From a virus, in the IMG/VR virus record IMGVR_UViG_3300032236_001850, positions 364,392 through 428,391 of that record: a DNA stretch of 64,000 bases; one strand, 5' to 3'. The notes beneath the pieces were generated by a model. The model saw nothing but the letters and a program-made list of their open reading frames with translations. It did not search any database and was not told the origin of the DNA. The translations under genes and the position numbers were made by a program. Shown here piece by piece: positions 981 to 57,671 of the stretch (position 1 is its first letter; every line of letters starts with the position of its first letter).

Positions 981-1217
981 ATGAAAACATTCTCAAATTT
1001 AAAAGAACTAAACGAAGCAAAATATGGCCAGCCGTTATATAGCGAAAAGGACCATATGAAGAATCTTCTTATTGCTGCTTGTGGTAATGATAGAAGAGTT
1101 CTTGATGACATCGTAGATTGCCTTACTGATGAGCAAGTTAAGTCTTGTTTTACTAAGTTATCTAAAGTGTATGGAACAACAAATTCGGTTGGACAAAAAC
1201 AGGATATTAATCAGTAA
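981..1217 (+). CDS. Small protein with capsid-targeting-like N-terminus
   Basis: 78 residues. The N-terminus MKTFSNLKELNEAKYG closely resembles the T4 internal-protein capsid-targeting sequence, with L-N-E followed by A as a possible prohead-protease site (residues 10-12). The rest (about 65 residues) is unknown and helical-looking, with CGNDRRVLDDIVDCLTDEQVKSCF. A GATATATA late-type motif lies just upstream. Packaging into the head is inferred from the N-terminus and promoter only. Confidence 0.6.
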   Translation: MKTFSNLKELNEAKYGQPLYSEKDHMKNLLIAACGNDRRVLDDIVDCLTDEQVKSCFTKLSKVYGTTNSVGQKQDINQ

Positions 1218-1229
1218 TACATAAATTAT

Positions 1230-1943
1230 ATGAATTTAGTCGGAATCGACTTCTCACTGAATTCTCCAGCTTTTTGTTGTTTTAAGAACAATAGATATAT
1301 ATGGGGATCAGTTTCAAGATCAGACAGAACGTCTGAATCTTTATTAAAAAACAAGAAAAAACCATATTTTATACTTGATTCTAACGATAGCTTTATTGTA
1401 AAGATATTAGAGAAACAGGAATTTACTACAGAGTATTCTGCTAGGGAAAGAGAAAAAATGGGATATTTCTTAGAAATTGTTGAAGTTCTTTGGAATTCTA
1501 TACTTGAGATCATGGGCGATGAGCCATTCCATGTAGCAATGGAGGGTTTAAGTTTTTCGTCCAATGGTAACTCACTTGTAGACATCTCGATGGCAACAGC
1601 TCTACTGAGAGAAAGAATAATAGATAGAATTGGAAGTGAAAATTTTTATGTTTTCTCACCAACAACTCTTAAAAAATTCGCAGTTAAGGGCAACGCAAAA
1701 AAGGATGAATTGTATCACGCATTATATAATTTAAGAGAGGATGAAACAAACTTGAATGTGTTCTGTAAGATATTAGAAGAGAATAAAAACGAATGGATAA
1801 CTAAGGCTAAGGCAATAAACAAGCCAATAGATGATGTTGTCGATTCAACTTGGGTAAACTTGTATTTAAAAGAGGAATTAAGAGGGAATAATGAAATTAT
1901 TAAAGGAAAAAAGAATAACAAAACTACAAAGAAATTGGGATAA
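1230..1943 (+). CDS. RuvC-like Holliday junction resolvase
   Basis: 237 residues with an RNase H-like resolvase layout. The first acidic residue is in MNLVGIDFSLNSPAF (D7), the second in AMEGLSF (E105), a basic segment KGNAKKDEL follows near 153-161, and the last acidic cluster is KPIDDVVDS (D201/D202, D205). This matches the RuvC family, which cuts Holliday junctions. T4 uses the unrelated endonuclease VII (gp49) for resolving branches before packaging, so this protein probably takes that job here. It starts 12 bp after the previous gene and is followed by a clear terminator at 2015. Confidence 0.8.
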   Translation: MNLVGIDFSLNSPAFCCFKNNRYIWGSVSRSDRTSESLLKNKKKPYFILDSNDSFIVKILEKQEFTTEYSAREREKMGYFLEIVEVLWNSILEIMGDEPFHVAMEGLSFSSNGNSLVDISMATALLRERIIDRIGSENFYVFSPTTLKKFAVKGNAKKDELYHALYNLREDETNLNVFCKILEENKNEWITKAKAINKPIDDVVDSTWVNLYLKEELRGNNEIIKGKKNNKTTKKLG

Positions 1944-2014
1944 AATTCTATTGACTCTTTCTGAGCAATCCCCAATAATCGAACAAGCAATCAATATTTT
2001 ATCATATACAATTT

Positions 2015-2045
2015 GACACTAGGTACAACTATCTGGTGTCTTTTT
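2015..2045 (+). terminator. Rho-independent terminator after the resolvase gene
   Basis: An 11-bp stem (two G-T wobbles) with a CAAC loop, 2015-2040, is followed by TTTTT. It separates the resolvase gene from the ssDNA-binding protein gene. Confidence 0.8.
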
Positions 2046-2181
2046 GCTGTTTGGTATTCACCATAAAAAATAAAAAAAATGTAATATTATAAGATTAGAG
2101 GAAACAAAAAGAAAAACAAAAGTAAAATTTAAAGAATTTAAAACAAATTAAAAAACAAAATTAAAAAAAAATTAAGAAAAG
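2046..2181 (+). promoter_or_regulatory. A-rich leader and promoter region of the ssDNA-binding protein gene
   Basis: This 136-bp stretch has no ORF and is about 90% A+T, with long runs of A. A possible -10-like element, TAATATTATAAG, lies near 2082-2093, but there is no clear early (TATATTTG) or late (GATATATA) box. The A-rich, Shine-Dalgarno-free leader is typical of strongly expressed Bacteroidetes genes. It carries the promoter for gene 32 because a terminator closes the unit upstream. Confidence 0.5.
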
Positions 2182-6554: not shown

Positions 6555-7103
6555 ATGATTATAAAATCTTTTTCTGAATTTAACGAATCCAATCTGGATG
6601 AATCATATTATGATCAATATCACGAAACCCATGGTAAGACATCTTTTACCAGATGGCTTAGAAAAATAGGTGATAAAATAGGAATAGGAGATAGTGGATA
6701 TACCAGTTACTATGCAGATTCTGATCCCAATTCTGACGCTATACTTAGTGGGAGAAGAGCTATTGCAGCTACTGTAAGTGGACTCGCAAAAGGTACCGCT
6801 TCATTTATAGATTTTTTATCTCCTGGTGAAGATATAAAATCCTGGAAAGATCTTGACAAGGAAGAAATAAAAAGAAGAAAAGAGGAGATTATTAGAAAAT
6901 GGGAAGCTGAGCATATAGAGAATAAACATGTTACTGACCACGATGCCGAGGAATTTTATAAATCTGGAGTTCTTAGAGGGAAAAAATATTTTGGTAACGA
7001 TTTTAAGCCACAAGATCCTAAAAGTAAGGATGAAGAGATATACAGAGATTATCTTAGAGATGTAATGAATACCTATTATAGAAAAACCAAAAAGAAAAAA
7101 TAG
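6555..7103 (+). CDS. Unknown protein with capsid-targeting-like N-terminus
   Basis: 182 residues. The head MIIKSFSEFNESNLDES carries the shared F-x-x-F pattern followed by x-N-E/L-D-E, where a prohead protease could cut. The body has a short hydrophobic stretch (AIAATVSGLAKGTASFIDFL, ~62-81) and a long charged helix, and ends in a basic tail (RKTKKKK). No known domain. It follows a GATATATA motif and is 11 bp before the nucleotidyltransferase gene, so the two are co-expressed. Confidence 0.6.
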   Translation: MIIKSFSEFNESNLDESYYDQYHETHGKTSFTRWLRKIGDKIGIGDSGYTSYYADSDPNSDAILSGRRAIAATVSGLAKGTASFIDFLSPGEDIKSWKDLDKEEIKRRKEEIIRKWEAEHIENKHVTDHDAEEFYKSGVLRGKKYFGNDFKPQDPKSKDEEIYRDYLRDVMNTYYRKTKKKK

Positions 7104-7114: not shown

Positions 7115-8035
7115 ATGAATAGGATACTCAATTTTTCTGATTTTATTTTTGAAGGTGGTGCTGCTATAAAAACTTCCAGAAGAATAAGGGAGGATGAATT
7201 TCCAGAAACACTGAAGAGTATACAGGAAAATCTTTTTCCGCTTATTGGTATGGTTCCTAGCAGAATCAACGATCAATATGTTGTTATTGGTAGTATAGGT
7301 AAAAAACAAAATCCCGAGGATACATCTGGTGATTTAGATATTGGTTATGATGCAATATGGTATTCACAGGATAATGGCATAGAGAAAAAGGAATGTTCTA
7401 GTTTTATTTATGAGAAAATAAAAAATGGGATTGGTGATGTGCTTGGATTTGTACCAGAGATTAATTATATGAGAGGACTTAATATAGTTAGTTTGGGATG
7501 GCCAATAAAGGGTGATGAAAATAACGGTTTGGTTCAGCTTGACCTTATTCCTTTATCTGATATGGCATGGGCTGATTTCATATATTATTCACCAAACTAC
7601 AAAGTTGGTGAGAGTAAATATAAATCCGCTCATAGAAACTGGCTTTTAGCTGCTATATTATCAGCTAGGAAGGAGATTAGAGAAAGAGATCAATTTGGTG
7701 AAATATTGGATTATGATACGCCTGTTCTTATTTTAAGTGATGGTCTATATTGGCACACTAAATCATATAGAGGTAAGATAAAAGACAGATTAAAGAATCC
7801 TAAAAAAATAGAGGGAAGCGAGAGATTTATCACTAATGATCCTCAGGAATTTATAGATTTTGCTTTAGGTAAAGGTTATACGGAAGATGACGTTAAAACT
7901 TTTGAGAAGTTATTTAATATAGTAATTTCACCTGATTTTGAATTAAAAGATAAATTACCAGAAATAAAGGAAAGATTTTTGGAATTTTTACAAAGAGTTG
8001 GACTAGAAATACCTACAGAGGTTAACGAAATATAA
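7115..8035 (+). CDS. Nucleotidyltransferase-fold protein with capsid-targeting-like N-terminus
   Basis: 306 residues. The head MNRILNFSDFIFEGGAA shows F-x-x-F and then I-F-E before Gly, a fit to a prohead-protease site. The body has polymerase-beta-like nucleotidyltransferase marks: GS at 59-60, DLD at 73-75 (SGDLDIGYD) and a third Asp in VQLDLIPL near 144. Family members transfer nucleotides to RNA, proteins or small molecules; the substrate here is unknown. Gene order (nucleotidyltransferase then ligase/NMN adenylyltransferase, 20 bp apart) suggests a joint task on RNA or NAD. The promoter is late type. Confidence 0.7.
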   Translation: MNRILNFSDFIFEGGAAIKTSRRIREDEFPETLKSIQENLFPLIGMVPSRINDQYVVIGSIGKKQNPEDTSGDLDIGYDAIWYSQDNGIEKKECSSFIYEKIKNGIGDVLGFVPEINYMRGLNIVSLGWPIKGDENNGLVQLDLIPLSDMAWADFIYYSPNYKVGESKYKSAHRNWLLAAILSARKEIRERDQFGEILDYDTPVLILSDGLYWHTKSYRGKIKDRLKNPKKIEGSERFITNDPQEFIDFALGKGYTEDDVKTFEKLFNIVISPDFELKDKLPEIKERFLEFLQRVGLEIPTEVNEI

Positions 8036-10092: not shown

Positions 10093-10638
10093 ATGAAAAA
10101 ATTTATTGCATCGTTTGATCAATTTACAAATCCAATTAATGAAAATGATGGATTTGGTACATCACCATTCCTTATGAAAAAAGTAGGTGATGTTTATCAT
10201 TATTTTTTCAGTCTTGATAGTGAGGACGAAGAACATGAGATGGGATATCATTTAATTATAGGTAAATATTCTGAGAATGAACCTATAGAAGGTGCTAAAA
10301 ATTCATATTGTGTACTCAATATAAATCAGATAGGTCATGAGCTTATTGAAGATATAGCAGTAGATAAGGAGGATATACCTACTCCTGATACAACTGAATT
10401 TTTAGTTGATGGAAATGAGCTTTCAAGATTGGTGGAACAGATCTTTAAATGTGTTCTTGATTATCTTTCGTTGAATCCAAAGGTTGTTAGAATATATGAC
10501 AATTTGCAAGACAATCTGGAGTATAAAGGTAAAGGAGAATATATAGAATATATGAAGTCAATATGTGTGTCCAAACTTGGTAAAAATTGGTCCGTTCAAA
10601 ATGGATCAACACAAAAATCATTAATTTTAAGCAGATAA
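10093..10638 (+). CDS. Unknown protein with capsid-targeting-like N-terminus
   Basis: 181 residues, starting 3 bp after the ligase fusion. The head MKKFIASFDQFTNPINEN has two aromatic anchors and I-N-E, a possible protease site, at residues 16-18. The remainder is an acidic alpha/beta domain without recognisable motifs. It closes the 6555-10638 late-type unit. Confidence 0.6.
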   Translation: MKKFIASFDQFTNPINENDGFGTSPFLMKKVGDVYHYFFSLDSEDEEHEMGYHLIIGKYSENEPIEGAKNSYCVLNINQIGHELIEDIAVDKEDIPTPDTTEFLVDGNELSRLVEQIFKCVLDYLSLNPKVVRIYDNLQDNLEYKGKGEYIEYMKSICVSKLGKNWSVQNGSTQKSLILSR

Positions 10639-11783: not shown

Positions 11784-12209
11784 ATGAAAAAGCAGATGAA
11801 AAATCTTCTGAATTTTAAATCATATTCACCCGAATATGAATATAAAACCGAGTACAGAAGAGAAATTGAATTGGATCGTGTAAGAAAATCTAGAGAATAT
11901 AGAAGACTATTGGCTCTTGGATTCGATGAGGACACTTCACATCAGCAGGAAATAAACAACACTATGAAGTTTGTCAGAAGTGTTAAGAAACAAAAAGAGA
12001 TTGGGCATGGTGACGTCTTTTATACCATACATCCATCAGGTACGGTTAGAAGATATAATCCAATAAAATCAAAGGAAGTAAAAGAAGGAAACGGTAACGA
12101 TATAAAAAAATTCTCAGCACCTTTTAAATCTGCTAAGGATTATGCTAAAGGATTAAATTTTCTTTGGCAGTATCTAAAAAGAAAAGAGGCTAGAGGAGAT
12201 TACAGATAA
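11784..12209 (+). CDS. Unknown protein, capsid-targeting-like N-terminus (weak)
   Basis: 141 residues, basic. The head MKKQMKNLLNFKSYSPEYEY resembles the shared N-terminal pattern if read from the second Met, though the L/I-x-E site is missing. The rest is rich in Arg, Lys and Tyr, compatible with nucleic-acid contact. Co-transcribed with the DUF3008-like gene. Confidence 0.55.
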   Translation: MKKQMKNLLNFKSYSPEYEYKTEYRREIELDRVRKSREYRRLLALGFDEDTSHQQEINNTMKFVRSVKKQKEIGHGDVFYTIHPSGTVRRYNPIKSKEVKEGNGNDIKKFSAPFKSAKDYAKGLNFLWQYLKRKEARGDYR

Positions 12210-12440: not shown

Positions 12441-12941
12441 ATGTTTTACCCAACAGGAAATAGTACAAATGGAAGAAAATTAGTTTGTATCGATGACGAA
12501 AGAAAAAATTTAGATGAATGTCTAGATGAATGCAACTGTAACGAGTCTTGTGATTGTGACGATTGCAACTGTAACGAATCTTGCAATTGTGTCGAGAATT
12601 GGCTTGGTGAGAATAATTACTGTGTTGAAAAATGGCAACTAAAAAAGTATCTTAATGATAGAGGACTAAAAATGCAAAAACTCGATGAGGACATGGACGG
12701 AGGAGCAGCTCCAGCAGCTGGACTTGCAACACTGGGTAATGTGGGCGGAATGGGAAATCCAGCACCCCCTACTAATGGTGGTACAAACGCAGGTTTCTAT
12801 GACGGTTCAAAAAATGGAAGCGGAGATAGGTTTGGCACGTTAACTGTTGGTACAGGCGCAGCTAATAAGAAAGGTAAAAGAAAAAAGAAAATGATTTCCT
12901 ACAAAGAATTTGTTGATAAAAATAGAAAGAAAAAGAAATAA
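12441..12941 (+). CDS. Cysteine-repeat protein with Gly-rich middle and basic, tag-like C-terminus
   Basis: 166 residues. Residues ~27-50 hold a Cys cluster from an 11-residue repeat (CNCNESCDCDD), encoded by a 33-bp tandem repeat (12531 and 12564). A metal cluster or disulfide knot is likely. The middle (~75-135) is Gly/Ala/Pro-rich. The C-terminus is very basic and contains MISYKEFVDKN, which resembles a capsid-targeting sequence placed at the wrong end. Last gene of the late-type unit before a terminator. Function unknown. Confidence 0.6.
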   Translation: MFYPTGNSTNGRKLVCIDDERKNLDECLDECNCNESCDCDDCNCNESCNCVENWLGENNYCVEKWQLKKYLNDRGLKMQKLDEDMDGGAAPAAGLATLGNVGGMGNPAPPTNGGTNAGFYDGSKNGSGDRFGTLTVGTGAANKKGKRKKKMISYKEFVDKNRKKKK

Positions 12942-13010: not shown

Positions 13011-13400
13011 ATGTCCAGAGAGATACTGATACAAGAAAATTATCCTAATGAACCTTGGAAAATGCTCGTTTGTTGTATATTATTAAACCAATCCCATAAT
13101 AGATCTGTACGACCGATTTTAGACGCCGTATTTGAATTTATTCCTGATCCTGATTCTGCAATCAAGTGTGATGTTGAAAGTCTAGCAGCGATCATAAAAC
13201 CAACCGGTTTGTACAACGTAAAGGCTAGAAGAATAAAATGGATGAGTGTGGGATACAAAAAAGGCTTTAAAAGAGTTACCGATCTACCAGGAATAGGTTT
13301 ATATGGTAATGAATCCTGGGAGATATTTGTTAATGGTAATCTCGACATAAAGCCAACGGATAAAAAGCTTAGAGCTTATTTGGATGCCGTTTTATTTTGA
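13011..13400 (+). CDS. MBD4-like HhH-GPD DNA glycosylase
   Basis: 129 residues, i.e. a bare catalytic domain. It follows the MBD4 catalytic domain: PWKMLVCCILLNQ (~15-27), IIKPTGLYNVKARRI (~61-75), the helix-hairpin-helix loop LPGIGLYGNESW (~92-103), and PTDKKLRAYL with the catalytic-type Asp117. There is no HhH Lys, so it should be monofunctional. MBD4 relatives remove T, U or 5-hydroxymethyl-U opposite G. Given the dCMP-hydroxymethylase-like gene at 39428, repair of deaminated hydroxymethyl-C is a natural role (inference). It has an early promoter and meets the minus-strand gene at 13392 end to end with a 9-bp overlap. Confidence 0.8.
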   Translation: MSREILIQENYPNEPWKMLVCCILLNQSHNRSVRPILDAVFEFIPDPDSAIKCDVESLAAIIKPTGLYNVKARRIKWMSVGYKKGFKRVTDLPGIGLYGNESWEIFVNGNLDIKPTDKKLRAYLDAVLF

Positions 13401-14363
13401 TATTTTTACTCTTAGATTTATTGGTTCTTTAAGTACTGGATTTGAAACATAGAAAGGTTTTGCAACTTCACATTTCACAAACTTTTTATTTTCACCTAAT
13501 GGTAGATATATTACATCACCAGGTTTAAACATCTTGTGAATTTTTAATTTTTTACCATCTCTTTCGAATTCAAGATCCATTTCTATATGATCGTCAAATA
13601 TTGCCCAATTATCTGTTCTACCAAATTTTTTGAATTTCTTATTAATGATTCTGAAAACCTTACCTGTAACAAATCCATCTTCCCCTAATTTGGATGCAAA
13701 TTTTATAGGTTTACCTTTCTTAAGATTATAAGTTTTTATTTTTGAATTATCAAGACCAAAGCTTTCTTTTGGTACTTTCTTTGATTCTTCTTCTGTGAGA
13801 ACTGTACCATCACTTGATATAAACAATTTAAAATCGTAGTTTTCCTTAGGTTTGGTAACAATATATTTGAGTTTTTCCTCATCGTATTTCACCTTACTTA
13901 ATCCTGCATGAAATTCTATTGACTTGTTTATTTCTTCGTGTGACTCGTCATCTTTAAAAATTCTTATAGTTCTTGCTATATTTTCAATAATTGGGATGTA
14001 AATCTGATTTCCCTCTTTTGCTGATTGCTCGGCTTTTAGATTAGCTGGAACATAAACATTTAGTGGATAAAATTTACCCATAAATTTAAAATGTGTTTCC
14101 ATCATGGGATAACCGGTTGCTGTTTTGTCTGGGAATTTTAACCATTTAAGAACCTCATTCAGTCTATGGTCATATTCCTTTGCAAGTAAATCAGCGCAAG
14201 ATTTTTTAATTTCCTCTATTTTTCCGTTATCGAAATAATTAGACAACATGGTGGGAAAATCTATATTTTCTGGTTTGTAAAATCTTTCAATCTCCTCAAC
14301 ATCAACCTTTATGGTTAATCTTGCTTCATTTATCCAACCCTGAAATTTTTTTAAATTGTTCAT
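13392..14363 (-). CDS. Unknown protein with capsid-targeting-like N-terminus
   Basis: 323 residues. The head MNNLKKFQGWINEARLT is one of the clearest copies: basic residues, F, W, then I-N-E before Ala. The rest has no motif I know; it contains many Lys and strands, with a possible beta-barrel-like C-terminal half (KPIKFASKLGEDGFVTGKVF). It lies on the minus strand, overlapping by 1 bp the stop of another gene with the same head. Likely packaged late protein (inference). Confidence 0.6.
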   Translation of the reverse strand: MNNLKKFQGWINEARLTIKVDVEEIERFYKPENIDFPTMLSNYFDNGKIEEIKKSCADLLAKEYDHRLNEVLKWLKFPDKTATGYPMMETHFKFMGKFYPLNVYVPANLKAEQSAKEGNQIYIPIIENIARTIRIFKDDESHEEINKSIEFHAGLSKVKYDEEKLKYIVTKPKENYDFKLFISSDGTVLTEEESKKVPKESFGLDNSKIKTYNLKKGKPIKFASKLGEDGFVTGKVFRIINKKFKKFGRTDNWAIFDDHIEMDLEFERDGKKLKIHKMFKPGDVIYLPLGENKKFVKCEVAKPFYVSNPVLKEPINLRVKISK

Positions 14364-14668
14364 TATTCTTTTTTCTTTGAATTTTTTGCTTGAAATGTTG
14401 TTTTTAGATATTCTGTTATATCTGATCCTGATTTCTTATCTTCATTCAGAAACTTATTAAATTCCTCGGATTTGCCACATTCATCTAAGAAATCATGAAA
14501 GTAGGCTTCTTCGTACATGGCATCTATAGTTTCTGGCATTGTTGGATCTGCGCTCTGGTAGTTTCTGCTATTTACTTTGGTCTGATAAGAATCACCTGGA
14601 ACATCAATACTTCCTGGAGAATCAATCCATTCATTAACAAAACCTTTAAATTTTTGTAAATTTTTCAT
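14363..14668 (-). CDS. Small acidic protein with capsid-targeting-like N-terminus
   Basis: 101 residues. The head MKNLQKFKGFVNEWIDS carries V-N-E where T4 internal proteins have I-A-E. The body is acidic with no known domain. First gene of a two-gene minus-strand unit starting 3 bp downstream of a late-type box. Confidence 0.6.
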   Translation of the reverse strand: MKNLQKFKGFVNEWIDSPGSIDVPGDSYQTKVNSRNYQSADPTMPETIDAMYEEAYFHDFLDECGKSEEFNKFLNEDKKSGSDITEYLKTTFQAKNSKKKE

Positions 14669-17733: not shown

Positions 17734-20226
17734 ATGTTTGTAACCAAAAGAGATGGCTCGAGAGAAGCTGTTAGATTTGAAAAAATATCGAATAGAATAA
17801 GAAAAATGACGTATGGTTTAAATACTGATTACGTCGATGCAATGGAAGTGGCTCAGAAGGTTATTGCTGGAATTTACGATGGTATATCAACACAGGAGCT
17901 TGATAACCTTACAGCAGAAACTGCAGCTTCCCTTATTCCTAGACATCCTGACTATTCCATATTGGCTTCCAGAATAGCGGTATCGAGACTACATAAAACA
18001 ACTAAGAAAAAATTCTCAGAAACAATACAGGATCTTTATGATTACATAGATCCAGAAACAAATCAACCTGCTGGTTTGATCAACGATCTTACTTATGAGG
18101 TTGTGATGAAAAATAAACAGAAACTTGACGGAGCAATTATACATGAAAGGGATTTCGATTTTGAATATTTTGGCTTTAGAACACTTGAGAAAAGTTATCT
18201 GTTAAAAACCAATGGACAAGTTTGCGAATCACCGCAGCACATGTACATGCGTGTAGCCGCGGGAATATGGGGTGATGATATAAAGAGTGTTATTAAAACT
18301 TACGAGCTTTTATCAACACATATGATGACTCATGCTACTCCTACGTTATTTAATGCAGGTACCAAGAAACCTCAGTTATCGTCATGTTTCTTATTAATGA
18401 TGTCAGATGATTCTATTCCTGGTATTTATAAAACCCTTTCTGACGTTGCAATCATATCACAAAATGCTGGTGGTATCGGTCTTGCTATACATAACGTGAG
18501 AGGAACTGGTTCCTATATTAGAGGAACTAACGGTACTTCCAATGGAATAGTTCCAATGCTTAAGGTGTTTAATGAAACTGCTAGATATGTTGATCAGGGC
18601 GGAGGTAAAAGAAAGGGATCTTTTGCCATCTATGTTGAGCCTTGGCATTCAGATATTGAAGATTTTATAGAGCTTAGAAAAAATCACGGTAAGGAAGAAT
18701 TCAGAGCTAGAGATCTTTTCTTAGCTTTATGGACACCTGATTTATTCATGAAAAGAGTTGAGGAGGATAAAGATTGGAGCTTATTTTCTCCTTCTGAAGT
18801 TCCTGGTCTTTGGGAGTTATATGGCGATGAATTTGAAGCTGCCTATGAGGCTGCAGAAGCTGCAGGTAAAGCTAAAAAAGTAATTAAGGCTAGAGAGCTT
18901 TGGTCTAGAATATTGGATGCACAAATTGAAAATGGAACACCTTATATGCTTTATAAGGATGCTGCAAATAAAAAATCAAATCAAAAGAATCTTGGTACAA
19001 TAAAGAGTTCAAATTTATGTACCGAGATTATGGAATATACTGATAAGGATGAACAAGCAGTTTGTAATCTTGCTTCTATACCAGTTAATAAATTTCTTAA
19101 ATCCACTGACAATAGAACAGCAAAAATAACCAGAGGAAGATGTGAAGTTGACCATCAAGCTCTTTATGATGTTTCATATCAAACAACTCTAAATCTTAAT
19201 AAGGTAATAGATGTTAATTATTATCCCACAGCAGAAACTAAAAAATCAAATTTAAGACACAGACCTATAGGTATAGGTATTCAAGGACTTGCTGATTTAT
19301 TTGCAATTATAGGTATTCCTTTCGCTTCTCCTGAAGCTAAAAGAATAAACGAAGAAGTATTTGAAACCATATATTTTGCTGCAATGAGTGCTTCTGTTGC
19401 ACTTGCTAAGAAGGATGGAGCTTATGAAACTTTCCAAGGTTCACCTCTATCTAATGGTGAATTTCAATTTAATTTATGGGGATTCAATGACGAACAGTTG
19501 TCGGGAAGATGGGATTGGTCTAAACTTAGAAAGGATGTAATGAAAAATGGAGCTAGAAATTCATTATTACTAGCACCTATGCCAACAGCTTCAACAGCTC
19601 AGATTATGGGTAACAATGAAGCTTTCGAACCATTCACCTCGAATATATACACTAGAAGAACTCTAAGTGGTGAATTTATAGTCATAAACAAACACCTTGT
19701 GAAGGATCTTATTTCTCTAGGTTTATGGAGTGAAGATATGAAAAATCTTATAGTTCTAAATAAAGGATCTGTTCAGAATATAGAACAAATTCCTGAAAGT
19801 TTGCGTGAGGTTTATAGAACAGTTTGGGAAATAAAGCAGAAAGATCTTATAGATATGTCAGCAGGAAGAGGTAAATTTATATGTCAATCACAGTCTCTCA
19901 ATTTATTTATAGAAAATGTGAATTCAGCTAAATTGACTTCTGCGCATTTTTATTCATGGAAAGCAGGACTTAAAACAGGAATGTACTATCTAAGAACTAA
20001 AGCAGCAGTTGATGCTCAAGCAGGTCTTGGTATAGATATGGAGAAGGCTAAGAAAGCTATGAAGGAATCAAAAGAAATTAAGATAACTCCAGAACCAGTA
20101 AACACACCAAATGTTTTGGTTAACGGTATGACTAGCGAAGAACTTAGTAAAGCTGCTGAAGATGTACTTTCCGGTGTTGCTTGCAGTCTTGACGATCCGG
20201 AAGGATGCGAAATGTGCGGCTCCTAA
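17734..20226 (+). CDS. nrdA: Class I ribonucleotide reductase large subunit
   Basis: 830 residues. An N-terminal ATP-cone (FVTKRDGSREAVRFEK) suggests allosteric control by dATP. Catalytic segments: SSCFLLMM (first active-site Cys), NLCTEI (thiyl-radical Cys region) and PMPTASTAQIMGNNEAFEP. The C-terminus ends CEMCGS, the swinging CxxC redox tail that is recharged by thioredoxin or glutaredoxin. It reduces NDPs to dNDPs for phage DNA synthesis. No intein or insertion seen. Confidence 0.96.
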   Translation: MFVTKRDGSREAVRFEKISNRIRKMTYGLNTDYVDAMEVAQKVIAGIYDGISTQELDNLTAETAASLIPRHPDYSILASRIAVSRLHKTTKKKFSETIQDLYDYIDPETNQPAGLINDLTYEVVMKNKQKLDGAIIHERDFDFEYFGFRTLEKSYLLKTNGQVCESPQHMYMRVAAGIWGDDIKSVIKTYELLSTHMMTHATPTLFNAGTKKPQLSSCFLLMMSDDSIPGIYKTLSDVAIISQNAGGIGLAIHNVRGTGSYIRGTNGTSNGIVPMLKVFNETARYVDQGGGKRKGSFAIYVEPWHSDIEDFIELRKNHGKEEFRARDLFLALWTPDLFMKRVEEDKDWSLFSPSEVPGLWELYGDEFEAAYEAAEAAGKAKKVIKARELWSRILDAQIENGTPYMLYKDAANKKSNQKNLGTIKSSNLCTEIMEYTDKDEQAVCNLASIPVNKFLKSTDNRTAKITRGRCEVDHQALYDVSYQTTLNLNKVIDVNYYPTAETKKSNLRHRPIGIGIQGLADLFAIIGIPFASPEAKRINEEVFETIYFAAMSASVALAKKDGAYETFQGSPLSNGEFQFNLWGFNDEQLSGRWDWSKLRKDVMKNGARNSLLLAPMPTASTAQIMGNNEAFEPFTSNIYTRRTLSGEFIVINKHLVKDLISLGLWSEDMKNLIVLNKGSVQNIEQIPESLREVYRTVWEIKQKDLIDMSAGRGKFICQSQSLNLFIENVNSAKLTSAHFYSWKAGLKTGMYYLRTKAAVDAQAGLGIDMEKAKKAMKESKEIKITPEPVNTPNVLVNGMTSEELSKAAEDVLSGVACSLDDPEGCEMCGS

Positions 20227-20240
20227 AAAAATAAATTGTA

Positions 20241-20909
20241 ATGGAAAACAACAAATGGTTTAATGACGATGTCATAAAAAAATTCGATGAATTTTTAAAC
20301 GAGAGAGAATTACCAGATTCTCAGGGGGATGTACTAGTTATGCTAGGAGCTCCTGGCTCCGGTAAAGGAACACTTTCAAAACAGCTGAATGAAAAATTTG
20401 GGATAAATCATATATCAACTGGTGATCTAATAAGAAAATCCGATGATCCTGAATTGAAGAAAATAGTTGAGTCAGGAAAGTTCATATCCGATGAAATGAT
20501 GCTTAAAATGCTAAGAAAAGAGCTAAAAAAGCTTGATCTTAATAAAGGTATAATTTTTGATGGATATCCAAGAACAATAAAACAAGCGAGAAAGCTTGAT
20601 TCGTTATTGGGTAAATTGGGTCTTGGTTTAAATCATGCTATATTTATGGATCTTCCGGAGGATAAGGCTAAGGAGAGAATAAGAAATAGAGCTAAGAAGG
20701 AGGGAAGAAAGGATGATGCAAGTGATGAGGTTATAGATAAAAGATTTGCCGAATATCACGAGAAAACTTTTCCTCTTGTTGATTTTTACAAGAAAAGCAG
20801 AAAATTAATAAAAATTGATGCTGATCTTGGTATGGAAGGAGTTCTTAAATCCATAGTTAAAAAGTTGGGTCTTAAAAAACCTAAAAAGAATAGAGATGAA
20901 AAAATCTAG
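20241..20909 (+). CDS. adk: Adenylate kinase with an extra N-terminal tag-like extension
   Basis: 222 residues. The kinase starts at VLVMLGAPGSGKGT (P-loop 36-44), then HISTGDLIR, the GIIFDGYPRT segment, a short lid (RAKKEGRKDDAS) and DKRFAEYHEKT. It interconverts adenine nucleotides or phosphorylates dNMPs for the neighbouring reductase. The 30-residue extension before the P-loop contains KKFDEFLNERELP, which looks like the capsid-targeting head with an L-N-E site, 12 residues inside the chain. Cleavage there would leave an intact kinase. No late-type box is seen nearby, so packaging is uncertain. Ends in a basic tail. Confidence 0.88.
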   Translation: MENNKWFNDDVIKKFDEFLNERELPDSQGDVLVMLGAPGSGKGTLSKQLNEKFGINHISTGDLIRKSDDPELKKIVESGKFISDEMMLKMLRKELKKLDLNKGIIFDGYPRTIKQARKLDSLLGKLGLGLNHAIFMDLPEDKAKERIRNRAKKEGRKDDASDEVIDKRFAEYHEKTFPLVDFYKKSRKLIKIDADLGMEGVLKSIVKKLGLKKPKKNRDEKI

Positions 20910-21549
20910 TGAAGATTTTGTAAAATCGATAAAGGAAAAAGTAAATCAACAAAAGAATATAGAAATAATCCAGAGAAATCTACTACATGATTCTCTGGAT
21001 TATTTTTCTTCTGTGATTCTACAGGATGGTGAAATAGAGATAAGAAGTTGCAAGAAATTTGATTCTGGTGAAATGAATTGTTTTCTTAATCTCTACAGCG
21101 AACATGATTCTATACCAGATCAGATAGATTCAATATTACATAAAAACAATCTTGAATTCAAAAATTTAAGACTGGATGAAAGAAAATTGATATATTGTGT
21201 TAATTTTGGAAATAATATATTGTCCTCAGCACATAACGACAACTGGATATTTTTAGAATTTTATTTAAAAGGTAAACATATATTCGAATGTAAAATTTCC
21301 TCTAAATTGGGATCGATTGATTATTCTCTATATGATAGTAAATATTTTAATATAAAATTCTGGGTGTTTGACGGTGAATCATTTAATAAATATGAAATTC
21401 CTCTAATAAATATAAACAGAAATAAAAGAGGAATAACAAGATCACTCGATGAAAAGTATTCTGCTTCTATAAAATTTGATCAAATAGGTGAGGTTGAATC
21501 CATAAAAGTTACTAAAAAAAGGGAGCAAAACCAAACAACTAAGCTATAA
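20896..21549 (+). CDS. Unknown protein
   Basis: 217 residues, overlapping the kinase gene by 14 bp. Beta-rich middle (FLEFYLKGKHIFECKISSKL), basic C-terminus, no signal peptide or known motif. Its coupling to adk gives no functional hint that I can support. Confidence 0.55.
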   Translation: MKKSSEDFVKSIKEKVNQQKNIEIIQRNLLHDSLDYFSSVILQDGEIEIRSCKKFDSGEMNCFLNLYSEHDSIPDQIDSILHKNNLEFKNLRLDERKLIYCVNFGNNILSSAHNDNWIFLEFYLKGKHIFECKISSKLGSIDYSLYDSKYFNIKFWVFDGESFNKYEIPLININRNKRGITRSLDEKYSASIKFDQIGEVESIKVTKKREQNQTTKL

Positions 21550-21565
21550 TATTAAAAAGCTTTAA

Positions 21566-22834: not shown

Positions 22835-22845
22835 TCTAATTACTG

Positions 22846-22853
22846 GATATATA
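22846..22853 (+). promoter_or_regulatory. Late-type promoter motif GATATATA
   Basis: TACTGGATATATACTAT is 22 bp before the ATG at 22875. The unit it starts is a single gene closed by a terminator at 23430, which makes the assignment firm. Confidence 0.6.
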
Positions 22854-22874
22854 CTATAAAAATTAGGAAGTAAA

Positions 22875-23408
22875 ATGAGACACCTTTTGGAATTTGAATC
22901 TTATGAAGGCTTAGATGAAGCTGGAATACCAATATATAATGCTGATGACTTTAGAAGGAGTCCTTCCAGTGAACCTGAGGATGAGGTATCAACCACTAAA
23001 ATCTTCTCCTATATAAAGGATCTATTGGAACAACAAAAAGCTGGACAGATAGAAGAAATCAGTATGACTGTGGATTTACCATTACAAGGTAAAAAAGCTC
23101 CACAACACGTTCTTGATACTCTTGACGCTGAAAGAAAAAGAATAGAGAAAGAACAGTATGCTATTAGAGGTAGCAGAACAGAAGCAGCTGATGTTGCTCC
23201 TGGTGATAATATCTACGGTGGTGAAGGTAGAAATCTTTTTGTTGATAGTGAGTATATAGTTACAGGAATCACCAATTTGGATGGAACAGATTACATTATA
23301 GGATTACCGGTTTCTAAGAAAAAAGAAGCTTTTAGTTCCCCTGAATCTATAGCTTATTATTCAACTTTTATAGAACCTAAACAAATAGAAGAAGTTTTTT
23401 ATTCATAG
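22875..23408 (+). CDS. Unknown protein with capsid-targeting-like N-terminus
   Basis: 177 residues. The head MRHLLEFESYEGLDEAGIP has F-x-x-Y and L-D-E before Ala. The rest is acidic alpha/beta with no known motif; the last ~60 residues (GGEGRNLFVDSEYIVTGITN) look like a small beta domain. Transcribed alone from a late-type box to a terminator. Confidence 0.6.
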   Translation: MRHLLEFESYEGLDEAGIPIYNADDFRRSPSSEPEDEVSTTKIFSYIKDLLEQQKAGQIEEISMTVDLPLQGKKAPQHVLDTLDAERKRIEKEQYAIRGSRTEAADVAPGDNIYGGEGRNLFVDSEYIVTGITNLDGTDYIIGLPVSKKKEAFSSPESIAYYSTFIEPKQIEEVFYS

Positions 23409-23429
23409 ATAGAAAAATATAAATTAAAA

Positions 23430-23456
23430 CCCTCAATTAAACATTGAGGGTTTTTT
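23430..23456 (+). terminator. Rho-independent terminator
   Basis: CCCTCAAT (23430-23437), loop TAAAC, ATTGAGGG (23443-23450), then TTTTTT. Confidence 0.92.
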
Positions 23457-23505
23457 ATTGAAATTAATTTTCGAAAAAGCATATAATATTAAACATAAAA
23501 TTAAA

Positions 23506-25290: not shown

Positions 25291-25330
25291 ATATTTTTTT
25301 ATATCGAATAAATAATTTATATTTGCATAA
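25291..25330 (+). promoter_or_regulatory. Early, host-like promoter
   Basis: ATTTTTTT, ATATCGAATAAA, then TATATTTGC with the -7 box at 25318-25325. It lies between the topoisomerase gene and uvsE. The -7 box matches the Bacteroidetes primary sigma consensus TAnnTTTG. Confidence 0.75.
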
Positions 25331-25338
25331 AAAATAAC

Positions 25339-26292: not shown

Positions 26293-26497
26293 GGATTCGT
26301 TATCCAATAATATCCAGAATCCCGACATAAAATATAGTTTGGATAGAGTTATAGAGGGAGAAGTTAAGTATGGATATTTAACTGAGAAATTCGGAAAGGA
26401 AAGGGTTGATGCTCTTGTTTCCGATTTTCTATTTTTATCTGATTTTGACTTTTTCCTTAAAATAAAAGAAAAATTAGAAAATAATGGGAATGATTAG
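26264..26497 (+). CDS. Small unknown helical protein
   Basis: 77 residues, overlapping uvsE by 29 bp and the next gene by 14 bp. Acidic and helical (DALVSDFLFLSDFDFFLKIKEKLE). It may be a distant relative of the adjacent YE-x-C family small proteins, but lacks the Cys. Confidence 0.5.
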   Translation: MSENVIQEFEDSLSNNIQNPDIKYSLDRVIEGEVKYGYLTEKFGKERVDALVSDFLFLSDFDFFLKIKEKLENNGND

Positions 26498-31616: not shown

Positions 31617-31617
31617 T

Positions 31618-31887: not shown

Positions 31888-31902
31888 TTGTATTGTCTTT
31901 AG

Positions 31903-31910: not shown

Positions 31911-31929
31911 CATGATAAAATAATCAAGG

Positions 31930-33405
31930 ATGATGATATCAAAAAATGTACTGGACTTTTCCTCTTTTCTAAACGAAGCAAAATCCAATGCTGTTCAGGT
32001 AATTATGCTAATAGGAGGTGGAACCAATGAGTTCTCAAGATCCTTTGAAGCAGAGTGTAAGAAGAAAAAAATAAAGGTAACTGTATTTGACGTTGATCTT
32101 GCCGAAGTTACCAGAAATAAAACCGGTGGTGGACACACAGTAACGGAAGGCAAAAAAATTGCTTCCATAGATCCATCAAATACTGTTGTTATTGCTAGAT
32201 CTGGGTGTCTTAAGAGCACACATAATAAGGAGCTTCTTATGGAGCTTGAAAATTCTAAATATTATGTTGTGAATAGATTAAGACCGATGGAAATATGTGA
32301 AAATAAATACATCACATCAGAGTTTCTTGAAAATTTAGATTTACCCGTTCCTAGATATTCTCTTATAGCATCTGAAGATCATATAGATGCAGCAGTTAAA
32401 AAAATCGGTGGTAAATTTCCAGTTGTTATGAAACTTCTTACTGGATCTCAAGGTATTGGTGTTTCCATTATTGATTCTCCAAATTCACTTAAATCTGTTT
32501 ATCAAACAATTAAAAAACTTGACGAGAAGAGTGAGGTATTAATACAGGAAAAAATAGAATCCAAATACGATCTAAGGATACATGTTATTATTAGAGACAC
32601 AAGTATTAAAAATATAAATAACACTGATAACTTCAAGGTTATTGGTGCTATGAGAAGAAATGCAGTTGGTAAGGATTTCAGAACAAATTATTCCCTTGGT
32701 GGAACGGTATCTAATGTTAAACTTAGTAAGGAAGTAATTGAAACAGCAATTAAAGCTGCTAGTGCAGTTGGATGTAATTGGTGTGGTGTTGATATAATGA
32801 TCGACGAGAAAACTAAAAAACCTTACATATTGGAAGTTAATTCATCTCCTGGTACTGAGGGCATATCTAAAGCATTAGGTAAACCTATTGTGGATGATGT
32901 TATAAAATTTGTAATGAACAGAGAAAATTGGGTTATACCTTCATCAGAAGTTGGTTACTTAGAGGTTATGGAAATAGAGGGTCTAGGTAAGGTGATAGCT
33001 AAATTTGATACTGGTAATGGTACTCTTTGTTGTTGTTTACATGGTGATAAATTGGAGGTTAAAGGTAAAACCTTACATTTCCAAATAGGTCATAAAAAAT
33101 TCACAAAAAAAATAACTGGATATACTGATGTTTCTGGTGGTATGCACACTAAAGGAACAAAGAAAATGCCAACGGTTAAGATGGATTTAAAATTTGATGG
33201 TGCATGGACAAAAGATGTTGATGTTGCAATAGTAGATAGAACAGATAAGAGCACACCATTTTTAGTTAATAGAAAAACTATGAGACAAATGAATGTTATA
33301 GTAAATCCAAACACAAAATTCATAGTTACTGAAAATTTTGACGATAGATATAGTCAATATACATCAAAAGGAAAACCTCATGCAGGTATTGAATTTGAAA
33401 AATAA
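31930..33405 (+). CDS. RimK-like ATP-grasp ligase fused to RimB-like retropepsin domain, with capsid-targeting-like N-terminus
   Basis: 491 residues. The head MMISKNVLDFSSFLNEAKSN has F-x-x-F and L-N-E before Ala (14-16); cutting there leaves the first strand of the enzyme (VQVIMLIGGG) intact. Residues ~20-330 are a RimK-type glutamate ligase: GKFPVVMKLLTGSQGIGV, LIQEKIESKYDLRIHVI, GAMRRNAVG and metal ligands in YILEVNSSPG. Residues ~335-470 match RimB-type (DUF785) aspartic proteases: GYLEVMEIEGLG, AKFDTGNGT near 360 and LVNRKTMRQMNV. RimK adds glutamates to ribosomal protein S6 and RimB trims them. Fusing both in one phage protein with a packaging tag is striking. Start could also be the second ATG at 31933. 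Confidence 0.82.
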   Translation: MMISKNVLDFSSFLNEAKSNAVQVIMLIGGGTNEFSRSFEAECKKKKIKVTVFDVDLAEVTRNKTGGGHTVTEGKKIASIDPSNTVVIARSGCLKSTHNKELLMELENSKYYVVNRLRPMEICENKYITSEFLENLDLPVPRYSLIASEDHIDAAVKKIGGKFPVVMKLLTGSQGIGVSIIDSPNSLKSVYQTIKKLDEKSEVLIQEKIESKYDLRIHVIIRDTSIKNINNTDNFKVIGAMRRNAVGKDFRTNYSLGGTVSNVKLSKEVIETAIKAASAVGCNWCGVDIMIDEKTKKPYILEVNSSPGTEGISKALGKPIVDDVIKFVMNRENWVIPSSEVGYLEVMEIEGLGKVIAKFDTGNGTLCCCLHGDKLEVKGKTLHFQIGHKKFTKKITGYTDVSGGMHTKGTKKMPTVKMDLKFDGAWTKDVDVAIVDRTDKSTPFLVNRKTMRQMNVIVNPNTKFIVTENFDDRYSQYTSKGKPHAGIEFEK

Positions 33406-33420: not shown

Positions 33421-33648
33421 ATGGAAAACTTAAGAGAATTCGGAAAAATTAACTCTAGATTAAGCGAGTCCGAAGAAAAAGCAGAAAAAGACGAAAAGAT
33501 CCAAGTTTTGCTTTCTGGTGAAGATTTAAGTGATCTAACAAGAAAGATAGCGAAAAAAGCTTTATCTAAAGGTGAAGCTCCTGTATCTGTATCTCACTAT
33601 GTTAGATCACTAATTAGAAGAGATCTTGGTAAAACTACTAAAGACTAA
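33421..33648 (+). CDS. Small basic-tailed protein, capsid-targeting-like head, possible ribbon-helix-helix
   Basis: 75 residues. The head MENLREFGKINSRLSESEEK has F and an L-S-E site. The C-terminal half (LTRKIAKKALSKG...SHYVRSLIRRDLG) resembles a ribbon-helix-helix DNA-binding unit. Follows the RimK-RimB gene by 15 bp in the same late-type unit. Its stop overlaps that of the opposite-strand acidic gene. Confidence 0.55.
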   Translation: MENLREFGKINSRLSESEEKAEKDEKIQVLLSGEDLSDLTRKIAKKALSKGEAPVSVSHYVRSLIRRDLGKTTKD

Positions 33649-34124
33649 TTCTTACCGAAAAAATCAGTGTATGATAAAACCCTACGGTCATTAGATTGTG
33701 GGGTTTCTTCTTGATTACCAGTTTCCATCTCTGCATCATCAGGTTCAGATAAATCATCTTCATCCTCCTCGTCGTAATCTGCATCGTCGTCATCCTCATA
33801 CTCCTCATCTGGATTTTCTACCTCCTCGTCATCCTCGTACTCTTCGTCTGGATTTTCTACCTCTTCATCATCATCGTAGTCTGAGTTGTCTTCATCTTCC
33901 TCATACTCTGAGTCGTCATAGTCCTCATCCTCCTCGTCGTATTCATCATCATAATCCTCATCTTCTGATTCGTCGTCATATGTTTCATAATCATCGTTAC
34001 CGTAGTCTGAGTCATCGGTATCATAAGTTTCATACTCCTCTCCATATTCACCTGATTGTGAATCGTCACCAGATAGATATGAATCGTCATTAATAAACTC
34101 GTCTTCTTCTTTTAAATGTTTCAT
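33645..34124 (-). CDS. Extremely acidic repeat protein with tag-like ends
   Basis: 159 residues, well over half Asp/Glu plus many Tyr. A 39-bp tandem repeat (33799-33837 and 33838-33876) encodes 13 residues (EVENPDEEYEDDE-like). The N-terminus MKHLKEEDEFINDDSYL partly fits the capsid-targeting pattern (I-N-D rather than I-N-E), and the C-terminus ends VLSYTDFFGKN, close to the MISYKEFVDKN end of the Cys-repeat protein. Such a polyanion could mimic DNA, neutralise packaged basic proteins or bind metal; all inference. A late-type box lies 26 bp upstream on the same strand. Confidence 0.65.
   Translation of the reverse strand: MKHLKEEDEFINDDSYLSGDDSQSGEYGEEYETYDTDDSDYGNDDYETYDDESEDEDYDDEYDEEDEDYDDSEYEEDEDNSDYDDDEEVENPDEEYEDDEEVENPDEEYEDDDDADYDEEDEDDLSEPDDAEMETGNQEETPQSNDRRVLSYTDFFGKN
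33799..33876 (-). repeat. 39-bp tandem repeat, two copies, coding
   Basis: Copies 33799-33837 and 33838-33876 differ mainly at third codon positions. They encode the NPDEEYEDD repeat of the acidic protein, so the repeat is maintained at protein level. Confidence 0.85.
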
Positions 34125-34182: not shown

Positions 34183-34494
34183 ATGTCCGCTATACTGGAA
34201 TTTTCCGAATTTAATGATTCTAATCTAACAGATTCTGAAATGAGAACGATTAAGGAATGGGTTAAGAAATATGAAAAATATTTTAATTTTCACGATGGTG
34301 AAAATTTTGATTCCTCTATAGATCAGTTAGCATCAGATGTTATGTCACAGACTGGCATAGATCAATCAAAAACTAATGATGTTGTTTCTTATCTTGAGGA
34401 GCTATATTCACTGTCGGACGGATTATCTGTTGTTATGGCACCGGATAGACAATTTCAAGATACCGATATAGACCAATTAACAAGATTTTGGTAA
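34183..34494 (+). CDS. Small acidic protein with capsid-targeting-like N-terminus
   Basis: 103 residues. The head MSAILEFSEFNDSNLTDSEM closely parallels the head of the gene at 6555 (SFSEFNESNLDES). The rest is acidic and helical, with no known domain. Divergent from the acidic repeat gene, sharing an AT-rich late-type promoter block. Confidence 0.6.
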   Translation: MSAILEFSEFNDSNLTDSEMRTIKEWVKKYEKYFNFHDGENFDSSIDQLASDVMSQTGIDQSKTNDVVSYLEELYSLSDGLSVVMAPDRQFQDTDIDQLTRFW

Positions 34495-46076: not shown

Positions 46077-46469
46077 ATGGAAAGAATAAAAAGTTTTGAT
46101 TTATTTGAGGATGAAAGTATTGGTCCTCCTGAACAAAAAATATACAGTAAATATTACCAGGGACCTTCTGCCTGGCCTACAGTTGTTGATGCGTTAGCTA
46201 TTATTAGTAAAAATCAAAACGGAGATGGAGATGGAGATGGTTTAGTAAAGCCATCACAGGAGCTAGTTGATTTTATTAAAGACAACAGTTCGGAGGATGG
46301 ATTAGATAGTTCAATAGCAGGATTTTTTACTGAAATATTGAAAGCAGTTAAAATTGCTAATAGTAGTTTATATACCAAACTGGGTGGAGAATCAATGATT
46401 AGAGCTATTGAGGGAATGCAGAACGATTACGTTGCTACCCACAACACAGATGGTACTAAAAAATTCTAA
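46077..46469 (+). CDS. Unknown protein with capsid-targeting-like N-terminus
   Basis: 130 residues. The head MERIKSFDLFEDESIG has F-x-x-F and L-F-E before Asp. The next gene begins with a near copy of it (MERIASFEQF), suggesting duplication of the tag. The body is helical and has a short Gly-Asp repeat (GDGDGDG). Function unknown. Confidence 0.6.
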   Translation: MERIKSFDLFEDESIGPPEQKIYSKYYQGPSAWPTVVDALAIISKNQNGDGDGDGLVKPSQELVDFIKDNSSEDGLDSSIAGFFTEILKAVKIANSSLYTKLGGESMIRAIEGMQNDYVATHNTDGTKKF

Positions 46470-46513: not shown

Positions 46514-46948
46514 ATGGAAAGAATAGCTTCATTTGAACAATTCAAAAGAAATGGCGCATCAATGGATGAATATAATTCTGAGATAGAGGCAACAAACGAA
46601 AATAGTACGGATGACAAAAAACATTATATGTTTTTTAGAAATGTGCAATCAATCAAGCACTATATTGATGAGATCATGAAAATGGACAAAGATAAAATCG
46701 ATGAACTTCTTGAGGATGGTCATGATTGGGCTGCTGATCACATATCAACCGCTAAAACAGACATTGAGGAAGTTGCTGAATGGTTAAGAGACGAATTTGA
46801 AGATGCAGAGGAATCTGACGATGAGGAAGAAAATGAACCGGAGGAAGCAGAAGAAACTGAGGAGGAACCAGAAGGTGAGGAATCTGATGAAACAGGAGAA
46901 GAACCAGAAGGGGAGGAAGAGGAAAAAACAGGAAAGGAACCTCTATAA
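46514..46948 (+). CDS. Acidic-tailed protein with capsid-targeting-like N-terminus
   Basis: 144 residues. The head MERIASFEQFKRNGAS is similar to its neighbour's, but the L/I-x-E site is unclear. A helical middle is followed by ~50 residues of Glu-rich tail with EEPEGEE repeats. As with the other polyanionic proteins here, it could offset basic proteins in the head or mimic DNA (inference). A terminator follows. Confidence 0.6.
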   Translation: MERIASFEQFKRNGASMDEYNSEIEATNENSTDDKKHYMFFRNVQSIKHYIDEIMKMDKDKIDELLEDGHDWAADHISTAKTDIEEVAEWLRDEFEDAEESDDEEENEPEEAEETEEEPEGEESDETGEEPEGEEEEKTGKEPL

Positions 46949-56055: not shown

Positions 56056-56057
56056 TA

Positions 56058-56357
56058 ATGATACATTTTTTAAGAAACCCTAAGGGTCAAACACTAATAG
56101 AATGCGAAGCAATGGAGGAAGATCTTAGTGCTTCAATGTATGTTTGGAACTACACAATGGAAGTTCTTTACAGAGCTAAACAATCAACAACTGAGGTTCT
56201 TGAATTTGCACGTACCATGGACGACCTTGATGAGATAAGAGGCCTATGGTGGGAGAAAGCAAGAGACATGGAGGATTGGCAAAGCATAGATGATTTCGTT
56301 GCCCATCATTTCAAAGCTGCTGCTAAAAAATATGATCTGAATTACGTAACGGATTAA
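56058..56357 (+). CDS. Small unknown protein
   Basis: 99 residues, helical, acidic, with repeated Glu/Trp (RGLWWEKARDMEDWQ). Co-translated with the kinase (2 bp apart). Unknown. Confidence 0.55.
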   Translation: MIHFLRNPKGQTLIECEAMEEDLSASMYVWNYTMEVLYRAKQSTTEVLEFARTMDDLDEIRGLWWEKARDMEDWQSIDDFVAHHFKAAAKKYDLNYVTD

Positions 56358-56359
56358 AT

Positions 56360-56488
56360 ATGAAAAAGAGATTTGAATGCCAAAGAAAAAATATGCGATG
56401 TCTAAATTGGACCGCTATTATAACCTGGACTATTATATTTACTATAGCCTATAACCTATTCAAATGGTTATATGGTCTTGTATTTTAA
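56360..56488 (+). CDS. Very small single-helix membrane protein
   Basis: 42 codons. Basic N-terminus (MKKRFECQRKNMR) followed by one membrane helix (WTAIITWTIIFTIAYNLF). Two bp after the upstream stop and ending against the opposite-strand gene. Likely real. Confidence 0.55.
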   Translation: MKKRFECQRKNMRCLNWTAIITWTIIFTIAYNLFKWLYGLVF

Positions 56489-56700
56489 TTTCTATTAGGG
56501 AATAAAGGATCTGGTTGTATATCTGGATCCTTCTTATTCTTTAAATATTCCATGGCGGACATACCGACCTGGTCTATAAAACTTGGCATCTTGAATGGCT
56601 CTCTACATTCACCACCAACATTAACACTCCCCACCAGACCTGGATTCATAGCTTCCAGTCTTTTAGAGATCATGTCTAAATATTCTTGACTTGGTTTCAT
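56485..56700 (-). CDS. Small unknown protein
   Basis: 71 residues, Pro- and Met-rich with no known domain (NPGLVGSVNVGGECREPFKM). Second gene of a minus-strand pair; its start overlaps the upstream stop by one base. Convergent with the small membrane gene. Confidence 0.55.
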   Translation of the reverse strand: MKPSQEYLDMISKRLEAMNPGLVGSVNVGGECREPFKMPSFIDQVGMSAMEYLKNKKDPDIQPDPLFPNRN

Positions 56701-57671
56701 TATTTTAGCTTACCTACTAATTTCTTTATCTTTTCTGGATCTTCCAATAGTCCTGGATTCTGTGCATCATAATCCATGAATTTCTTGCTTAATTTTGGAT
56801 TTTCTAGAACCGCAGTTATTAGATCCATAGCTTTATTGTCCGGTATATTTACTATGGCTTTAAAGAACGTCTTCATGTCAAGGTCATCAAAAAGGGAAAC
56901 TATTCTTTTGCATGCTTCAATTGATAATTCATCATTAATAGATGTTCCATATGTTTTTACGAAAGTTGGGATGTTGACATTCCCTTCCAATATCGATTTT
57001 ATAGCTGATGGTCCTAAATTTATTGCCGATGCATATAAGATGTCCTCAATTATATTTATAACGTCCAATTTTTCTTCTCTTGTATAGAATGGATGATCCT
57101 TGGTTATAACGGTAGCATGAAATCCTCCGTTATAATCATTAACTGTATCCACATTGGGGTTACCATATATCGTTACATAACCAGGTGCAGGAGCGCTCAA
57201 TCTTATTGCCATATTATCAATTAGTTCCTTTGCTGAATCACGTCGAGATGAATATCCTCTGGTTCCTCTATAATGAGGCCATCCGCTAGAAGTGCTCTCA
57301 GCTGGTAAGCTTATATCTGCTTTTCTAAAAGTTCTTTTATTTATAAGATTGCTTATAATATTAACAGTTGATGTTCTTCTTTCTGGTCTTTGTGTAACAA
57401 GACCATTTTCATCGTCTCTATATAAATCAAAATCACTAAATGGAACTAGATCGAATTTCTTTTTTAGCTCAGCAAACTCTGGTATCTGAAGAAGCTCCTC
57501 AAACTTAGGAAGATATTTGGTGATTTCCTTTTTAGGTGGTTTCTTCATACCAGCAAATCCCGACTTCTTAAGAATGTTATTAACCTTCTGTAGCTTTTTA
57601 AAATTTTCTATATCTAGTGGCTTTTCTTCCTCGTTTTCGTTCATGAGGAATTCTTTGAATTTTTTAATCAC
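56700..57671 (-). CDS. Unknown protein with capsid-targeting-like N-terminus
   Basis: 323 residues. The head MIKKFKEFLMNENEEE is the copy closest to T4 MKTYQEFIAEA: basic, F-x-x-F, L, then M-N-E. A basic linker follows, then a large helical domain (LSIEACKRIVSLFDDLDMKTFF) with no family I recognise. Its length equals that of the minus-strand gene at 13392, but the bodies do not look alike. A late-type box lies 19 bp upstream. Confidence 0.6.
   Translation of the reverse strand: MIKKFKEFLMNENEEEKPLDIENFKKLQKVNNILKKSGFAGMKKPPKKEITKYLPKFEELLQIPEFAELKKKFDLVPFSDFDLYRDDENGLVTQRPERRTSTVNIISNLINKRTFRKADISLPAESTSSGWPHYRGTRGYSSRRDSAKELIDNMAIRLSAPAPGYVTIYGNPNVDTVNDYNGGFHATVITKDHPFYTREEKLDVINIIEDILYASAINLGPSAIKSILEGNVNIPTFVKTYGTSINDELSIEACKRIVSLFDDLDMKTFFKAIVNIPDNKAMDLITAVLENPKLSKKFMDYDAQNPGLLEDPEKIKKLVGKLK

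Follow-up and report, generated by a model that had tools for sequence, protein, structure and literature searches.

A 64,000-nucleotide window (G000:C1:364392-428391) of the 434,509-bp virus record IMGVR_UViG_3300032236_001850 carries sixteen genes whose proteins begin with a similar short segment, here called the head, placed on different bodies (Table 1). Read from sequence, these heads are very probably capsid targeting sequences (CTS) of the phage T4 type. The best explanation as a whole, to which we assign a probability of about 0.8, is that the heads bind within the prohead core and are cleaved there, which frees their cargo inside the phage head. Before cleavage the tags probably imitate the repeat of the core itself. 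The same genome encodes a gp21-like protease fused to a predicted scaffold built of head-like units. The scale on which heads occur, the types of cargo and this fusion of protease and core, with its tandem array of the head motif, are new.

The head was defined by a rule: a hydrophobic residue 2-3 residues ahead of an aromatic, an Ar-x-x-Ar pair (Ar, aromatic) near the N-terminus, and then a hydrophobic/Asn-Glu step, the aromatic spacing being the sole variable. The genes sampled were 294 in 220 of the 434 kb, taken as stretches. With the two-residue (x2) spacing, 35 of the 294 N-termini match the rule, against 8.0 +/- 2.7 in shuffled N-termini (maximum 18) and 7.8 predicted from internal windows, and the shared N-terminus described in the earlier note is thereby borne out across the wider genome. 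Each of seven other aromatic spacings (x0, x1, x3-x7) gives background, with 3-13 matches. At the family level in relatives, the x2 spacing is found in 34 of 277 families and other spacings in 2-10. The excess over chance is about 27 heads, a few of the 35 being chance matches, and extrapolation from this sample suggests roughly 50 heads per genome. At least 20 more heads lie beyond the window, several adjoining the capsid and protease genes.

The matches are amphipathic segments that sit at the extreme N-terminus and occupy about 10-20 residues, of which three anchors are nearly invariant in families: -3 (I/L/V), 0 (F/Y) and +3 (F/Y/W). Positions +1 and +2 and the linker to the Glu vary, and the anchors persist among orthologs at 60-85% identity and below. 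Heads are retained throughout the nucleotidyltransferase (17/17), 182-aa (amino acid; 14/14) and RimK (5/5) families, in 31/31 members of an 86-aa family, in nearly all of a 298-aa family, and in every relative found for the 13392(-) protein and an L,D-transpeptidase-like protein (genes are named by their left ends in the window). That the heads reflect chance, or a composition bias in the start regions of an AT-rich genome, is hardly credible: N-termini are indeed rich in M, K, I, F and E, and some listed heads are weak, but the enrichment is confined to a single spacing, shuffles of these same N-termini fall short of the count, and the anchors are conserved across diverged orthologs.

On sequence grounds the head is a module, since the same head stands on different bodies and headless homologs of these bodies exist. 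A homolog of the nucleotidyltransferase from Prevotella LAK phage is headless, and its start (MSGMAIKGS) lies close to the residue that follows the predicted cut here (FE-GGAAIKTS); AAA+ ATPase homologs in other phages begin close to the ATPase domain, whereas the copy in this genome has a headed N-terminal extension. Neither the repeat array described below nor a head excess was seen in the LAK phages, and decoding TAG as Gln made no difference.

Knowledge of the T4 targeting signal dates back to the 1990s. In the T4 record, ipII and ipIII begin MKTYQEFIAEA and ipI begins MKTFKEF, and the end of the gp23 propeptide, FGSFLTE-A, where gp23 is cleaved, has the same form and spacing as the heads. 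In IPIII ten N-terminal residues (MKTYQEFIAE) are enough for targeting, which depends on residues 4 and 7, and residues 8 and 10 serve processing (PMC9026906). The likeness to T4 proposed in the earlier note holds at these determinants, as the aromatics and the Glu of the heads match residues 4, 7, 8 and 10. Ar-x-x-Ar is present overall and weak in 981, 33421 and 33645(-). The hydrophobic-x-Glu step stands at the exact T4 spacing in 7115 (FSDFIFE), 13392(-) (FQGWINE), 14363(-) (FKGFVNE), 20241 (FDEFLNE) and 31930 (FSSFLNE), and other heads have a longer gap. All N-termini listed in the earlier note are present, with minus-strand genes given by their left ends, but four of the sixteen heads are weak (981, 11784, 33421 and 33645(-)), among them one presented there as a full copy. 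The note's group of weaker copies is right for 11784, 33421 and 33645(-) and wrong for 20241, whose T4-spaced head is kept in three close orthologs.

The T4 system (IPI, IPII, IPIII and Alt, with gp21) resembles the present one in its N-terminal 10-20 residues, its aromatics three apart, its hydrophobic-x-Glu site, its S77 protease and Gp23 capsid protein, and, to judge from a promoter-like element here, probably in its late genes. It differs in that T4 tags a handful of proteins, keeps protease and gp22 scaffold separate and has no tandem motif array, whereas this phage has dozens of heads, enzymes included, and a core that is fused to its protease and holds 13 copies of the motif.

The fusion lies in a T4-type head module at about 284-304 kb of the genome, with a Gp23 capsid protein and a Peptidase_S77 protein; the gp21-like protease anticipated by the earlier note is thus in the same genome, within the capsid gene's module. 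Its gene (L006:12799-14763; G000:C1 296799-298763) encodes 654 residues. The counterparts of T4 His85 and Ser140 (GELDHP, ISSR), which are catalytic residues in T4, are invariant in 30 orthologs. The protease domain is followed by a predicted scaffold region with 13 tandem 14-residue units (ISYSEYLAENLDKG), whose consensus is I-x-Y-S-E-Y-[LIV]-A-E-N-[LV]-D-K-G, where the columns Y, Y and E were fixed by the search pattern and the rest were free; each unit contains Ar-x-x-Ar-h-x-E (h, hydrophobic). The array is present in all full-length orthologs, with 10-15 matches nearly all at 14-residue spacing and fewer only in truncated genes. Array matches number 11 in a 636-kb and 14 in a 735-kb phage, and heads are numerous in the latter (MSTLSHYKNFVNEA, MVKMFREFLNEA, MIKRFNNFVKES). 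In Pelagibacter phage Mosig and Methylophilales phage Melnitz, the gp22-type core contains a single segment resembling the motif (YLSYVVEE, YMGYVVEE). We infer that a scaffold segment was expanded into the array and that the heads mimic it. Literature searches, incomplete in coverage, returned no description of such an array. The cited T4 literature does not state the binding partner of the CTS in the core, and the 13-copy scaffold offers a concrete docking candidate. In the neighbouring capsid protein (L006:14781-16505), the N-terminal YDTWSPLIE and a conserved HSLNE-SAG resemble core-contact and cleavage sites. A second Gp23-like protein of 297 aa at L008:7289-8182 (G000:C1 about 87.3-88.2 kb) is perhaps a vertex or decoration protein.

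Headed genes also share an upstream element. GGATATATA, 24-32 bp upstream, marks the headed operons and the core-protease gene. Counted gene by gene, (G)GATATATA occurs within 60 bp of the start, mostly 24-32 bp upstream, in 14/33 headed genes versus 23/261 other genes, the latter including several head, tail or weakly headed genes; examples stand upstream of 6555, 22875 and 31930 in the window. In relatives, GATATATA precedes 98-100% of the members of four headed families, 85% of core-protease genes and 0-24% of the members of 21 other families, several of which are downstream genes of headed operons. GATATATA is a candidate late promoter, and its presence before both the headed operons and the core-protease gene supports the view that headed genes are late. 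The T4 late promoter TATAAATA was considered as the headed-gene element and rejected, as it is not enriched.

These observations bear on whether the heads could be another kind of localisation signal, directed at the membrane, the tail or baseplate, or a replication compartment. Short amphipathic aromatic segments can target membranes, but the heads are nearly absent from the tail clusters (rule matches in only 2/29 genes), they match the mapped T4 determinants, their motif is repeated within the protease-core protein, and they share a promoter element with its gene; we regard this as quite improbable.

The bodies behind the heads are diverse. Those in the window comprise a nucleotidyltransferase-like protein, RimK with a RimB-like C-terminus, adenylate kinase, acidic proteins and unknowns; those beyond it include an AAA+/MoxR-like ATPase, an SLT transglycosylase, an L,D-transpeptidase/Tlde1-like enzyme and a second nucleotidyltransferase-like protein (weak Pfam match). 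Most headed bodies have no match in Pfam or PHROGs. AF2 models the head of the nucleotidyltransferase as disordered (predicted local distance difference test, pLDDT, about 27) and part of its body as well ordered; Foldseek returned nothing below E 0.001 for this protein, with weak matches only, to the nucleotidyltransferases TglT, LnuA and MenT3. Heads of this kind also open the RimK homologs of Mosig (FKNYLEEA) and Melnitz (FSQFITEE); among the genes inspected in these two phages, RimK alone carries a clear one. Another headed protein (L123:14039-14620 (-)) has LYHGN near its N-terminus, which recalls ADP-ribosyltransferases, and no Pfam match.

The cargo is where a structural role for the heads has to be weighed. 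Headed proteins of 384, 298 and 86 aa adjoin the capsid gene, look helical and charged as core proteins do, and more likely belong to the prohead core than to an injected arsenal; the core itself is made of the head motif, and the acidic headed proteins recall the acidic T4 core protein gp67. The heads might accordingly be prohead-core assembly elements, most headed proteins being structural or consumed core parts and the enzymes passengers or aids to head assembly. The RimK-RimB, AAA+ ATPase, SLT and L,D-transpeptidase-like bodies, on the other hand, are complete enzyme domains with no evident role in head assembly, and a RimK-type protein is virion-associated in phage YerA41, so that core assembly as the general explanation is possible and somewhat unlikely.

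Three known systems resemble parts of this arrangement. First, ejection proteins of phiKZ/SPN3US have propeptides cut by a gp21-related protease, with a proposed role in prohead targeting (PMC5694885); these propeptides are mostly over 100 residues, unlike the heads, and belong to another phage lineage. Second, Sphingobacterium phage PAU has one N-terminal head (MKT-xx-LYEAxLNEA) common to several head-module proteins (gp142, gp150, gp152, gp153 and gp154, with gp142 and gp154 annotated as internal capsid proteins), but its head sequence is a different one and its protease is separate and lacks a repeat array. Third, YerA41 carries a RimK-type protein and other enzymes in its virions, the former marked as detected by liquid chromatography-tandem mass spectrometry (PMC7354516), although in a different phage and without such a head. 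The GenBank annotation of the YerA41 RimK homolog is structural protein, and we infer from description and gene order that it is the g112 of PMC7354516.

Several observations weigh against T4-type targeting and release as the function of the heads. The gap from head to Glu ranges from 0 to about 10 residues, and a few heads have no clear hydrophobic-x-Glu. Several headed bodies are without any known function, and the RimK homolog packaged by YerA41 bears no such head. The adenylate kinase gene follows a ribonucleotide reductase gene and has no promoter element of its own, and therefore may not be late. Among the phages compared, the repeat array is absent from PTm1, MA9V-2, MaF61 and PAU and degenerate in LR756500; the nearest cultured relatives lack it, yet heads occur in some of them, so not every phage needs the array for targeting. 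The AF2 model of the protease-core fusion is of low confidence (mean pLDDT 46) and was used for helical tendency only.

Under T4-type targeting, the cargo heads would pack against or among the core repeat units and so enter the prohead core. At maturation, the protease would cleave heads and core units alike behind their Glu, so that the core is taken apart and the cargo released within the phage head. The freed RimK-RimB, nucleotidyltransferase, perhaps adenylate kinase, transglycosylase-like and L,D-transpeptidase-like enzymes and acidic proteins would then travel with the DNA, and cargo able to pass the tail would enter the host. Packaging of the headed proteins and cleavage of their heads are likely, and injection of the enzymes into the host is plausible; overall, the interpretation given in the earlier note is partly supported. 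A broader proposal, at about even odds, is that giant phages in this group rely on a modular code for import, in which tags copy the unit of a protease-fused scaffold and any tagged late protein (about 50 per genome, extrapolated) is loaded, released and passed on to the host, among them enzymes that act on ribosomes, nucleotides and the cell wall. Heads allow particle-borne proteins of uncultured giant phages, host-directed enzymes included, to be predicted from sequence alone, and could be used as packaging tags.

Table 1. Headed genes of the window (positions in the window)
Product	Position	Strand	Head and remarks
78-aa protein	981..1217	+	weak head MKTFSNLKELNEA, one aromatic; promoter-like GATATATA upstream
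182-aa protein	6555..7103	+	strong head MIIKSFSEFNES; headed orthologs all with promoter element
Nucleotidyltransferase-like protein	7115..8035	+	GS...SGDLDIGYD motif; strong head MNRILNFSDFIFEGG, ILNFSDFIFE/GG (slash, predicted cut)
181-aa protein	10093..10638	+	strong head MKKFIASFDQFTNPINE, FIASFDQFTNPINE; 12/12 family members match rule
Basic protein	11784..12209	+	weaker head MKNLLNFKSY, from 11796
323-aa protein	13392..14363	-	strong head MNNLKKFQGWINEA, LKKFQGWINEA; orthologs headed 4/4
101-aa protein	14363..14668	-	strong head MKNLQKFKGFVNE, LQKFKGFVNE; two more internal Ar-x-x-Ar-h-x-E copies; promoter element upstream
Adenylate kinase	20241..20909	+	~30-aa N-terminal extension with FDEFLNE (KKFDEFLNERE); kept in 3 close orthologs
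177-aa protein	22875..23408	+	strong head MRHLLEFESYEGLDEA, LLEFESYEGLDEA; promoter element
RimK ATP-grasp with C-terminal DTG domain (RimB-like)	31930..33405	+	strong head MISKNVLDFSSFLNEA, VLDFSSFLNE/A; promoter element
75-aa protein	33421..33648	+	weak head
Very acidic protein	33645..34124	-	weak N-terminal head; C-terminal copy VLSYTDFFGKN-end; promoter element
103-aa protein	34183..34494	+	strong head MSAILEFSEFNDSN, ILEFSEF; variant element GAATATATA upstream
130-aa protein	46077..46469	+	strong head MERIKSFDLFEDE, IKSFDLFEDE; promoter element
Acidic 144-aa protein	46514..46948	+	strong head MERIASFEQF, IASFEQF
323-aa protein	56700..57671	-	GTG start; strong head IKKFKEFLMNE; promoter element upstream; orthologs sought, none found

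Megablast of window positions 20000-32000 against phage records gave no match. GenBank relatives of the capsid protein come mainly from Bacteroidota phages (Prevotella LAK, Tenacibaculum, Chryseobacterium, Flavobacterium, PAU) and from uncultured phages of 462-735 kb, and the host is therefore likely a member of the Bacteroidota. Copies of the motif also stand at C-termini in the window, at 12441-12941 (+) (...MISYKEFVDKNRKKKK-end) and 33645-34124 (-) (...RVLSYTDFFGKN-end), where they are perhaps C-terminal targeting signals.
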